Source: Limibacillus halophilus
Lineage (GTDB): Bacteria > Pseudomonadota > Alphaproteobacteria > Kiloniellales > CECT-8803
Assembly: GCF_014191775.1 (NCBI RefSeq)
Contig: NZ_JACHXA010000003.1
Coordinates: 186,001 to 250,000, forward strand
Reading direction: 5' to 3'
Length of the DNA stretch: 64,000 nt
The position numbers and the translations under genes are program-made. Position 1 is the first letter of the stretch, and each line of letters opens with the position of its first letter. The notes under the pieces were generated by a model that searched no databases, had not been told where the DNA came from, and saw only the letters and a program-made list of their open reading frames with translations. This document shows, piece after piece, positions 18,838 to 22,875 of the stretch.

Positions 18838-19053
18838 TTAATAGAGATGCTGGCCGCCCGTCACGAAAACCTCGGTTCCCGTCACATAGCCAAAATCACT
18901 GCTGCATAGCTGAAAGACCGAGGCGAAACCTTCTTCGCATGAGCAGGTAATGATTCGCCATTGTTCGTCGGAGAAACGCTTGACGGTAGCGTGGCCGATC
19001 CCCCGGCTGGCGCCCGTCAGGACCAAAGTTTCTCGGGCTTTGCGAGAACTCAA
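18838..19053 (-). pseudogene. Short-chain dehydrogenase remnant with internal in-frame deletion
   Basis: The 71 codons join an SDR N-terminus (ETLVLTGASRGIGHATVKRF, the NAD(P)-binding loop) directly to an SDR C-terminus (SDFGYVTGTEVFVTGGQHLY, the last strand and tail). The roughly 180 residues that should lie between, including NNAG and the Ser/Tyr/Lys triad, are missing. The join is near residues 36-44. The only available start is TTG at 19053. The product cannot be a working SDR; it is probably decaying, unless the short peptide has been retained for another reason. Its original substrate is unknown. Confidence 0.75.
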
Positions 19054-19154
19054 AATGGCCTGGAGGCTAACAGCTTCATCAAAGGCGTGGGAGTCCTATC
19101 ATGGCGACCCGGGCCACACAGATCCGATAAGGCACCGACAGGGTCTTCAAGAAC

Positions 19155-19529
19155 TCAATCCAACGGGCGAACCGAAACGACCCGGAAGGTTTGCAAATCA
19201 CCGTCATGCTCGCGAATCGAGACGTACTCACCGGGCTTGAAGGCATGGTCGGCGAAGCGATACCCCGCCTCGTCCTCATCCGAATCGCCGTTCACGTCGT
19301 AGTGAAAGGCCCAATGTCCGCCGCGGGTGCGTACCAGATGCCCAACTTCATCAGGTTCGCCCTGCCAGAAGCGGTGGACCCGGCAACGCGCGCGCTCTTT
19401 TCGCCATTCCTCTACGTCAATCCGGCTATCATCAGCCAAAGGGGCGATAAACTCGTAACCGTGACGATTGCTCCCTTCCGGGTGCTGTGGATCGCGTGCC
19501 AACTCCAATCTGATACGTTCCAGCGTCAT
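19155..19529 (-). CDS. Conserved hypothetical protein (124 aa)
   Basis: A 124-residue polar, cytoplasmic protein rich in Asp, Glu, Arg and His (FIAPLADDSRIDVEEWRKE, CRVHRFW, HWAFHYDVNGDSDEDEAGYR). It has no signal peptide or membrane segment. The pattern of short beta strands ending in DGDLQTFRVVSVRPLD suggests a small beta-rich fold. From memory, similar unnamed proteins occur widely in Alphaproteobacteria. ATG 19529 has a GAGG site upstream. It is followed on the same strand by the SDR remnant. Function unknown. Confidence 0.75.
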   Translation of the reverse strand: MTLERIRLELARDPQHPEGSNRHGYEFIAPLADDSRIDVEEWRKERARCRVHRFWQGEPDEVGHLVRTRGGHWAFHYDVNGDSDEDEAGYRFADHAFKPGEYVSIREHDGDLQTFRVVSVRPLD

Positions 19530-19592
19530 GACTAACCTCGTCCTTCGTAGGCTTTATAACTCCAACTCCAACTCTGAGAACGCCGACCAACC

Positions 19593-20462
19593 TCAGTGGG
19601 CCATGAGGACCGGCATGCCGGCAGACCGCAGTACGCTCTCGGTCACACCCCCAAAAATGAACTCACGCAATCGGCTGTGACCGTAACCACCCATCACCAA
19701 GGTATCGGCACCGGCAGCGGCGGCCGTTTCGAGAAGAACAGCCCCGGTATCGCCACTGTCCGACGGCACTATCTTAGACTTCGCACTCAATCCATGGCAT
19801 GCCAAGTACCGGGATAGGGCTCCTAGGTCACTGGTTTTGCCGCTTTCTTCTACTGCCACCATGGTGATCTGCTGAGCATCGGATAGAAACGGTAATGCCG
19901 CAGCAACCGCACGGGTCGCAAAGGCCGAGCCGTCCCAAGCTATGGCAATGTGCCGCATAGCCGCGCCAACGCCACCTGGCGGAATGAGCAAGACCGCACG
20001 GCCGGTTTCCATGAGCGCAGCTTCCACGCAAACCGTCGCATAGGCATCCTCCTCCAGATCCGGACGATCCAGGACGATCAAATCGCGATAGGGGGCAGCA
20101 GCCTTTACGATCTCGGTCTCCGATCCCTGTAGGGCTTGCCAGGTAATTGAGAACCCCGGGCGCCCCGTGCCCACACTGGCTTCCAATAATTGCTGCCCTT
20201 TAGAAGCGGCTAACGCCTCGGCGGCTTTTCTAGCTTTACTGCGACGCGCATGGCCTTCCTGCTCATTACGCTCGATTACATCTTGGATCATCCCCGCTGC
20301 CATGCCCTCTCCAACCATCGGCAAGGCCATACGCGGATCCAAAGACACATGCAGGATATCCAGCACGGCATCAGCGCGCTCGGCAACCTCAGCGGCAGCC
20401 TTGAGGCAACCCTCCGTGCGCGCGCCACCACTCGCAATAACCAGAACCGCAGCGATCGGCAT
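19593..20462 (-). CDS. Universal stress protein (UspA family, tandem)
   Basis: A 289-residue protein with two Usp-like halves. The second half is the better conserved, with HIAIAWDGSAFATRAVAAAL near residue 155 and the nucleotide-loop-type ending ADTLVMGGYGHSRLREFIFG near 250; the first half, MPIAAVLVIASGGARTEG, is divergent. Such proteins help survival under starvation, low oxygen or oxidative stress; ligand and mechanism are usually unknown. ATG 20462 is chosen because GGAAGGAG precedes it. The upstream region carries an FNR-like box and a well-placed -10, suggesting induction when oxygen falls. Confidence 0.9.
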   Translation of the reverse strand: MPIAAVLVIASGGARTEGCLKAAAEVAERADAVLDILHVSLDPRMALPMVGEGMAAGMIQDVIERNEQEGHARRSKARKAAEALAASKGQQLLEASVGTGRPGFSITWQALQGSETEIVKAAAPYRDLIVLDRPDLEEDAYATVCVEAALMETGRAVLLIPPGGVGAAMRHIAIAWDGSAFATRAVAAALPFLSDAQQITMVAVEESGKTSDLGALSRYLACHGLSAKSKIVPSDSGDTGAVLLETAAAAGADTLVMGGYGHSRLREFIFGGVTESVLRSAGMPVLMAH

Positions 20463-20505
20463 GACCTGTCTCCTTCCCTTACTGGCTCGCTCTGAACTCA
20501 ATAGC

Positions 20506-20548
20506 AGTATCAGGCCGGGTCAGCGTAGACGACAATGACCTACATCAA
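20506..20548 (-). promoter_or_regulatory. FNR/FixK-like box and -10 element before the stress protein gene
   Basis: On the minus strand TTGATGTAGGTCAT (20548-20535) matches the FNR-family pattern TTGAT-N4-ATCAA at eight of ten fixed positions. GATACT (20511-20506) is a -10-like hexamer downstream. A start site near 20499 would place the box centre at about -42, the class II activator position. The box lies 73-86 nt before the ATG of the universal stress protein. Confidence 0.6.
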
Positions 20549-20587
20549 ACAAGTACATTCGACTAAAGGAATTCAAGACCAAGTGGG

Positions 20588-21526
20588 CTAGCGAACCGCG
20601 GAAGATTCCTCTTCGATGCCGAAAGGGTCTTGGTGAATCAGAATTTCCGCGTCGGGAAAGGCAGCCTGCAGCTCCGCCTCTACGGTGTCGGATACGACGT
20701 GGGCGCGCCACAGGCTCATGGCGCCACTCATTTCAATATGAAGTTGGATGAATTTTTGCGGACCAGCGGCTCGGGTCTTTAATTCGTGGAGGCTGAGCAC
20801 ATCCGGATGCGCCAGGACGATATCCTTGATTATTTGCCGCTCCTCGGGCTCCAACTCTCTATCCATCAGCATATCCATCGCGCCGCGCGCGATCTGCCAA
20901 GCGTTCCAGACAATATAGGCGGCAATGCCCAGGGCAAAGGCGGGATCGACCCACAAGAGGTCGAACTGACTGACAATAACCAGCGCGACAATCACTGCGA
21001 TATTGACCAGTACATCGCCCGCGTAATGCAGCGAATCGGCACTGATAGCCAGCGAGTCGGTCCGGCGGACGACGAAGCGTTGATAGCGCACCAGGATCAA
21101 GGTCAGGACAATGGAAAATATCATCACACCAATGCCGATGTCGGACGACGCCACCGGTTGCGGCGCATAAAGCCGCTTGCCGGCCTCAACCAAAAGAAAG
21201 ATGGCTGACCCCGTAATAAAGGCCGCCTGGGCCAGTGCCGCCAACGGCTCGGCTTTGCCATGACCAAAGCGGTGCTCACGGTCTGGCGGCGTCAGAGCCT
21301 GCCGGACCGCAAATAAATTGACCAGCGATGCAAAGGCGTCGAGCAGCGAATCGATCAGTGTCGAAAGCATCGCGACCGACCCGGTCAGCAACCAAGCGGC
21401 CAGCTTCACGACGATCAGGATACCGGCAACCGAGACCGAAGCGTAGGTAGCCCGCCGCATGAGGGTTGCCTTATGCGCCTGTCCCTGGGCCTCTGCCTGC
21501 CTTGCTGCGGTTTCAAACTCGGTCAT
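20588..21526 (-). CDS. Cation diffusion facilitator metal exporter (FieF-like)
   Basis: A 312-residue CDF transporter exporting divalent cations (Zn, Fe, Cd or Mn) by proton exchange at the inner membrane. Metal-site motifs are visible: DSLLD in TM2 (DxxxD) and HYAGD in TM5 (HxxxD), as in FieF/YiiP, plus HRFGHGKAEPLA in the loop. A C-terminal cytoplasmic domain with HELKTR and HIEMSG follows. ATG 21526 (MTEFETAARQ) is preferred because the longer frame starts inside pdxH; it then begins 26 bp after the pdxH stop. Six membrane helices are predicted. Confidence 0.92.
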   Translation of the reverse strand: MTEFETAARQAEAQGQAHKATLMRRATYASVSVAGILIVVKLAAWLLTGSVAMLSTLIDSLLDAFASLVNLFAVRQALTPPDREHRFGHGKAEPLAALAQAAFITGSAIFLLVEAGKRLYAPQPVASSDIGIGVMIFSIVLTLILVRYQRFVVRRTDSLAISADSLHYAGDVLVNIAVIVALVIVSQFDLLWVDPAFALGIAAYIVWNAWQIARGAMDMLMDRELEPEERQIIKDIVLAHPDVLSLHELKTRAAGPQKFIQLHIEMSGAMSLWRAHVVSDTVEAELQAAFPDAEILIHQDPFGIEEESSAVR

Positions 21527-21552
21527 GGACTGATTATCGCGCGCCCCTCCCG

Positions 21553-22140
21553 TCAGGGAAAGAGCCGCTCCGTCGTCCAAGTTCCGTCGGGCTGGCGATA
21601 GAAGACCAGGCGATCATGCAAACGAAAAGCGCCATCCTTCCAGAACTCGATCAAGCGGGGCATGACCCTAAAACCCGACCAGTATGGCGGCCTGGGTACG
21701 GCGCCGATGGCATACTTCGCTGCGTACTGGGCAACACGTTTCTCCAACTCGAAACGACTTTCCACCGGCCGCGACTGCTGGCTTGCCCAGGCGCCGATCT
21801 GACTGCTGCGATGCCTCGTGGAAAAATAGGCGTCTGCTTCTGATTCCGTGACCTGCTCGACCGGTCCTTCGATTCGCACCTGTCGACGCAGGCTCTTCCA
21901 ATGAAACAACAGGGCCGCCATGCCATGGTTCAGCAACTGCCTACCCTTTCGGCTTTCGTAATTGGTGTAGAACACAAACCCCCGCTCATCGAAGCCCTTT
22001 AGCAAAACCATACGCGACGACGGCATTCCATCCTCGCCAACGGTTGAAAGCGCCATCCCTTCAGGGTCATTGGGTTCGCTGCCCCTAGCCTCTTCAAGCC
22101 AAGCAGAGAATAATTCAAAGGGGTTGTCTTTTTCATTCAT
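21553..22140 (-). CDS. pdxH: Pyridoxamine 5'-phosphate oxidase
   Basis: A 195-residue FMN-dependent enzyme that oxidises pyridoxine/pyridoxamine 5'-phosphate to pyridoxal 5'-phosphate, in vitamin B6 biosynthesis and salvage. Typical segments are [46 protein letters not shown] and the C-terminal [20 protein letters not shown], with the ending TTERLFP close to the usual RLxP. The length is near the family norm. Gene order leftward is pdxH then the CDF exporter; the gap of 26 bp suggests co-transcription. Confidence 0.96.
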
Positions 22141-22267: not shown

Positions 22268-22320
22268 GGGGATGCCCGGGGATGCCCGGGGATGCCCGGG
22301 AATGCCCTGGGGATGCCGGC
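22268..22320. repeat. 10-bp tandem repeat, GATGCCCGGG
   Basis: Three exact tandem copies of GATGCCCGGG occupy 22271-22300, followed by a degenerate AATGCCCTGG and a partial GGATGCCGGC, with a further partial copy before. The array lies in the 270-bp gap between divergent pdxH and the glycine-zipper lipoprotein gene. Copy number is likely to vary between strains. The rest of the gap shows no gene. Confidence 0.85.
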
Positions 22321-22410: not shown

Positions 22411-22875
22411 ATGGCACTGAAAACCTTTGCTGTCGTCGGTCTTGCTGGCCTTATCCTGGCCGGGTGTGAACAAGGCCCGAAGCAGACCATCGGCACGCTT
22501 GCCGGTGCTGCCGGCGGTGCGGCCATAGGCTCTCAAATCGGCTCCGGTTCCGGACGACACGTCGCTATTGCGCTGGGTACACTCGCAGGCGCCATGTTGG
22601 GCGGCGAAATCGGTCGCCAACTCGATGAGCGTGATCAGTTGCTTTACAGCCAGGCTTACGAAGATGCCAAGACTGCACCGATAGGCGAGACCATCATCTG
22701 GTCGAACCCGGAAAGCGGCAACAAAGGTGCGATTACCCCCGTGCGCGACGGCACGACGGGCTCCGGTAAATACTGCCGCGAGTTCCAGCAGACCGTGATT
22801 ATCGCCGGCGAACCGCAGCAGGCTTACGGGGTCGCTTGCCGCCAACCCGACGGTACCTGGCAGATCGTTCAGTAA
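22411..22875 (+). CDS. Glycine zipper 2TM lipoprotein (17-kDa antigen type)
   Basis: A 154-residue lipoprotein. The signal ends in a lipobox, LILAGC, with the lipidated Cys near residue 19. A glycine zipper follows (GTLAGAAGGAAIGSQIG and GTLAGAMLGGEIGRQLD, about residues 29-70), then a C-terminal globular part with two Cys (KYCREFQQTV and GVACRQPDGTWQIVQ) typical of the Rickettsia 17-kDa surface antigen family. It is expected in the outer membrane. AAGGAATAGGAA precedes the ATG. A 10-bp tandem repeat lies about 90 bp upstream. Exact function is unknown. Confidence 0.9.
   Translation: MALKTFAVVGLAGLILAGCEQGPKQTIGTLAGAAGGAAIGSQIGSGSGRHVAIALGTLAGAMLGGEIGRQLDERDQLLYSQAYEDAKTAPIGETIIWSNPESGNKGAITPVRDGTTGSGKYCREFQQTVIIAGEPQQAYGVACRQPDGTWQIVQ

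Follow-up and report, generated by a model that had tools for sequence, protein, structure and literature searches.

A predicted class II FNR-activated promoter upstream of a tandem universal stress protein gene in Limibacillus halophilus

Background

FNR control of universal stress protein (Usp) genes is already known in alphaproteobacteria, and the sections of the literature used here describe it in several species. Dufour et al. 2010 place uspA (RSP0697) in the core FNR regulon that they predict for alphaproteobacteria, and in Rhodobacter sphaeroides this gene lies under an FnrL ChIP-chip peak and is a direct FnrL target (PMC2908626). The uspA gene of Sphingopyxis granuli TFA (SGRAN_3353) has an FNR box at -41.5, and the class II FNR boxes of other targets in this organism are centered from -40.5 to -42.5 (PMC7713065). 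Three Usp genes of Dinoroseobacter shibae are reported to be activated by direct FnrL interaction (PMC5398030), R. capsulatus uspA (RCC01156) is directly activated by FnrL (PMC4634722), and several Usp genes appear in the micro-oxic expression tables of a Bradyrhizobium study (PMC6515984).

The window analyzed here is a stretch of 64,000 nucleotides from Limibacillus halophilus. An earlier note had proposed that it contains a class II FNR/FixK-type promoter for a Usp gene at 19.6-20.5 kb, and had appealed to FNR control of usp genes in other Proteobacteria. That precedent is borne out by these alphaproteobacterial reports, including the -41.5 box of Sphingopyxis granuli, and the window promoter adds a further case.

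Results

The gene at 19.6-20.5 kb (19593-20462, minus strand) does encode a universal stress protein, a tandem Usp of 289 aa. Its product matches PF00582 at residues 222-288 (E 5.8e-14, 53.3 bits against a cut-off of 24), and Pfam finds no PF00582 match in the N-terminal half. Upstream on the same strand, an FNR-type box, TTGATGTAGGTCAT (20548..20535), and a -10-like hexamer, GATACT (20511..20506, 4/6), can both be read directly in the sequence, with the hexamer at +37 from the box start. The box has two mismatches to TTGAT-N4-ATCAA (8/10) and agrees fully with TTGAY-N4-RTCAW (10/10); its departure from the strict consensus comes from the 3' half, GTCAT. The center of the box is at 20541.5, and it is 35.5 nt from there to the final base of GATACT. 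With a predicted transcription start (minus strand) at 20500 the box is centered at -41.5, and with one at 20499 it is centered at -42.5, which confirms, for the predicted -10, the spacing near -42 claimed in the earlier note. A weak -35-like TTGTCG (20530-20535, minus strand, 4/6) shares the final base of the box and is separated from the -10 by an 18-nt spacer. A class II arrangement, with the box near -41.5 and abutting or overlapping a weak -35, is found here by reference to the predicted -10 only.

The start predicted from this spacing is 38 nt upstream of the Usp ATG (20462), and a Shine-Dalgarno-like AGGAGA (20474..20469, minus strand) occurs six bases 5' of that codon. The mechanical ORF begins at TTG 20501, which is unlikely to be the usp start codon because it coincides with the predicted transcription start. 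A promoter scan of 19000-21600 gives no sigma-70 site scoring 9/12 or more, a weak argument for an FNR promoter when shuffles give only 1.1. Further upstream, at 22268-22319, a short tandem repeat with a 10-base unit (GGGGATGCCC) is visible by eye 5' of the gene at 22411.

Motif matching alone is only mildly enriched and constitutes weak evidence; position and conservation carry the case. There are 28 matches to TTGAT-N4-ATCAA with two or fewer mismatches in the window, where 18.2 +/- 4.4 are expected. We rejected this count as proof of a site, since 2/100 shuffles of the window reach 28 and it is not strong enough by itself. Across the genome, the exact pattern TTGAY-N4-RTCAW returns 66 rows that reduce to 50 distinct places (16 rows for the reversed pattern). 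This total was also set aside as being of little use alone, because 42/50 places fall within mechanical ORFs of at least 100 aa and only 8/50 are intergenic by the mechanical ORF choice. Two of the eight intergenic boxes belong to Usp genes, the window usp and a second tandem usp; one lies near an FNT-like transporter, one near an MBL-fold-like protein, and four elsewhere (the names of non-Usp genes beside genomic boxes were assigned by eye).

Two other boxes in this genome support the FNR reading. TTGAYNNNNRTCAWTG occurs at four places (control 0), two of them upstream of Usp genes and two inside ORFs. The second tandem Usp gene (G000:C2:259600-259615) has TTGATTCAGGTCAA, whose center is 78.5 nt from the ATG, as against 79.5 nt at the window usp; no NAnnnT is found there at +36 or +37 from the box start. 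The cbb3 oxidase operon is a classic FNR target, and the cbb3-like operon of this genome (L074; PF00115, named by eye) has TTGATCTAGCTCAA, with one mismatch and its first base 97 nt 5' of the ccoN-like start. This box (L074, 3105-3118) overlaps the 3' end of the gene for an Rrf2-like regulator lying upstream, recognized by eye. Intergenic boxes also precede, by eye, FNT-like transporter, MBL-fold-like and hydroxylase-like proteins (L024, L102 and L083), and at L083 a TATAAT is located at +35 from the box start.

The place of the box and its conservation before usp exceed chance. A protein search of 58 genomes, including that of L. halophilus itself, recovers Usp relatives in 57, and the best 30 Usp matches, one genome each (its own and 29 relatives), make up the main set. 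Upstream of usp an exact TTGAY-N4-RTCAW is present at 23/30 loci, between -76 and -136 relative to the start of the match, compared with 0/60 coding windows of equal length. A scan of orthologous promoters was among the checks named in the earlier note, and this one finds the box conserved. Over 500 permuted motifs, an average of 0.044 of the 30 upstream regions contained a match, and never more than 4. All eight families of the 58-genome search are represented among the 23 boxed loci. In the nearest relative (59% protein identity) the box is identical at 12/14 positions, compared with 50/114 for the remainder of the 128-base stretch.

A second set comprises 80 loci from named genomes, many of them partial protein matches with the start placed by rule; most of the nearest Usp relatives with a name are alphaproteobacterial. 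The box occurs within 250 nt upstream at 19/80 of these loci and in 0/80 coding windows, and across 300 permuted motifs the average is 0.07 and the highest count 7. That only 19/80 are boxed counts against the FNR reading. In two genomes of the 58-genome search (G018 and G022) the cation efflux gene and usp are side by side with neither a box nor orf124, the gene that follows usp in the window.

The boxed promoters share a common register. We aligned 41 of them: the 23 of the main set and 18/19 of the named set, from which L116, a match to L067, was left out. Further overlaps between the two sets are possible, and the nearer box was used where two are present. NAnnnT occurs at +36 from the box start in 29/41, and no other offset between 12 and 59 has it in more than six; the stricter TAnnnT occurs at +36 in 12/41 and in two or fewer elsewhere. 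This peak implies that the box holds a fixed distance to the -10, at -41.5. The window hexamer, at +37, stands one base farther from the box than it does in the majority of boxed relatives. A TG at the -35-like offset is present in 17/41 promoters and is equally frequent at offset 41.

These results bear on whether the box could be a chance match, with usp driven by a constitutive or stress sigma promoter. Box-like words are indeed common, as the 50 genomic places and the 42 of them inside mechanical ORFs illustrate, and some relatives carry usp without a box. Conservation at a fixed place and in a fixed -10 register nevertheless argues strongly against coincidence, and we give this explanation hardly any credence.

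The genome encodes one candidate regulator of FNR type. A PF00325 profile search of its 3.48 Mb yields a single match, in a 250-aa protein whose best PDB matches are FNR-type regulators. This protein has a C-X2-C-X7-C motif, a more C-terminal Cys that aligns with an FNR cysteine, and the sequence ETVSR. The CX2CX7C spacing suits an Fe-S cluster, and by its cysteines and ETVSR only the protein is classed as a putative [4Fe-4S] oxygen-sensing FNR. In NCBIfam it comes closest to FnrL, FixK and Fnr, without reaching the cut-off of any of the three; against the FnrL equivalog NF045989 it scores 185.8 bits where 300 are needed, so we name it FNR-type rather than FnrL proper. FixK is an FNR-like protein without the N-terminal cluster cysteines. 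Since the one PF00325 protein has these cysteines, FixK is less likely than FNR, and of the FNR/FixK label given in the earlier note it is the FNR half that stands.

A different Crp/FNR-family protein, of the FixK, DNR or NnrR type, might instead act at the box, in which case the promoter would respond to nitric oxide or to a FixLJ cascade rather than to oxygen sensed by an Fe-S cluster. Such proteins use the same kind of box, and PF13545 has nine matches in the genome, four of them over the cut-off. One UspA orthologue group is assigned to DNR in the regulon predictions of Dufour et al. (PMC2908626). The regulator itself is among the nine, however, the other eight matches are partial, and the sole one of these inspected (L003) is GntR-like by eye. 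With a single PF00325 match in the genome, and that one carrying the cysteines, we regard this alternative as improbable.

Relatives of the FNR-type regulator are found in all 29 related genomes, and 27/29 best matches have the C-X2-C-X7-C motif. The two without it are one boxed genome (G009) and one unboxed genome (G011), and 6/7 unboxed genomes have the motif. FNR is present in boxed and unboxed genomes alike, so its presence does not separate the two.

The gene downstream of usp is an addition beyond the observation of the earlier note. This gene, orf124 (19155-19529, minus strand), encodes a conserved, uncharacterized protein of 124 aa, begins 63 nt downstream of usp, and is probably on the same transcript. 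It has no Pfam or NCBIfam family over the cut-off; a Pfam CDC48_2 match (E 0.0089) was under the cut-off and was dismissed as noise. An AlphaFold model built from 10 sequences, some cut at their match ends, is confident (mean pLDDT 88.1). No PDB fold matches this model under E 0.001 (best 0.037), and the sequence has no PDB match up to E 1. The absence of a clear PDB fold match rules out assigning a function to orf124 from its fold.

Boxed usp and orf124 tend to occur together. The orf124 gene is present in 34/58 genomes, L. halophilus included, and is preceded by a boxed usp in 30/34. Loci were examined for 30 of the 34: usp is upstream in the cluster at 26/30, with an exact box before it in all 26 (17 shared with the main usp set, 9 outside it). 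The other four (L230, L237, L240 and L249) have no usp within 1.5 kb upstream of orf124, and at L249 a box begins 200 nt 5' of orf124. The remaining four orf124 genomes (G010, G048, G052 and G053) have a boxed usp and then orf124. Viewed from the 30 usp loci with 1.5-kb flanks, a cation efflux gene accompanies 21, pdxH 22 and orf124 21. The seven genomes with an unboxed best Usp match include none with orf124, and two (G015 and G025) have a boxed usp without orf124.

A third small gene, for a protein of about 90-100 aa that begins MLT, lies between usp and orf124 in a good share of the 30 usp loci. It is found at 16/30 orf124 loci and also occurs in 14 of the 30 loci L038-L067, all within L042-L067 (L066 is without orf124). 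Its product has no Pfam or NCBIfam family over the cut-off, and it was not found in the L. halophilus genome by a search that had no positive control.

The association extends to named genomes and plasmids. Nine named loci hold usp and orf124, and an exact box precedes usp in seven, with none in L129 or L151. At L174 a separate exact box is 92 nt 5' of orf124, and at L166 orf124 is divergent from usp with one box common to both. A tblastn search covering 72,556 plasmid records yields relatives of orf124 in 41, all below 60% identity; among the 15 of these 41 matches that were listed, annotated features read 'hypothetical protein'. We examined four plasmid loci. The orf124 gene of Mesorhizobium sp. 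B2-1-1 has an exact box beginning 63 nt ahead of it. In Bradyrhizobium septentrionale orf124 is the last gene in a row of three, and an exact box stands 73 nt ahead of the first. The orf124 gene of Sphingobium sp. TomTYG65 is beside fnrL, ccoN and coproporphyrinogen-III oxidase and divergent from a Usp relative, with no box above 7/10 between the two. Azospirillum brasilense Sp7 keeps usp, a small protein and orf124 together and has no box above 7/10 in the 300 nt upstream of usp.

Discussion

We estimate a probability of about 0.87 that usp in the window has a class II FNR-activated promoter. Weighing against this reading are the two mismatches to the strict consensus, the window -10 at +37, the second Usp gene with NAnnnT at neither +36 nor +37, the presence of FNR in boxed and unboxed genomes alike, and the loci that keep usp, some of them with orf124, in the absence of an exact box. 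The box and its spacing, its conservation, the gene order and the FNR-type regulator are observed, and from them we infer the following course of events. As oxygen falls, the FNR-type protein would retain its [4Fe-4S] cluster and dimerize. The dimer would then bind TTGATGTAGGTCAT next to the weak -35 and recruit RNA polymerase to GATACT, and transcription would begin near 20500 and proceed into the tandem Usp gene. The transcript most likely extends into orf124, which would be co-transcribed with usp, so that both products could be made as part of the oxygen-limitation response.

FNR proteins also repress, and the direction of regulation is not readable from sequence. FNR might accordingly bind the box and repress, or set a basal level with other regulators. 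We consider this very unlikely, because a box centered at -41.5 or -42.5 occupies the activating position, and the uspA genes described in the sections of the reports used here are activated (PMC2908626, PMC5398030, PMC7713065, PMC4634722).

The preferred reading, an FNR-activated usp promoter, supports the view that control of usp by FNR has been widely retained in the response to oxygen limitation. It also draws attention to the orf124 family, which is unnamed in Pfam and NCBIfam and travels with FNR-boxed usp. A tentative extension, which we think somewhat less probable than its negation, is that the tandem Usp and orf124, joined in many relatives by the third protein of about 90-100 aa, form a conserved low-oxygen module. 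In it orf124 would work with Usp as an effector of the FNR response that is widespread among alphaproteobacteria. The link between orf124 and boxed usp was not met in the sections of the literature used here.

Comparison with the described systems, as far as the cited sections cover them, shows both likenesses and differences. The closest parallel is S. granuli TFA, which is likewise alphaproteobacterial and has a class II box near -41.5 before a Usp gene; its uspA is listed as monocistronic, whereas here orf124 follows 63 nt downstream (PMC7713065). D. shibae has four Crp/Fnr regulators (PMC5398030), whereas one PF00325 protein was found here. R. capsulatus has uspA and ccoNOQP in divergent orientation (PMC4634722), whereas here usp is flanked by a cation-efflux gene and orf124. 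As in Rhodobacter, uspA appears as a gene of the FNR regulon (PMC2908626, PMC4634722), and TTGATgtagGTCAA, a Rhodobacter sequence listed for an FnrL ChIP-chip peak that precedes other genes, differs from TTGATGTAGGTCAT at a single base.
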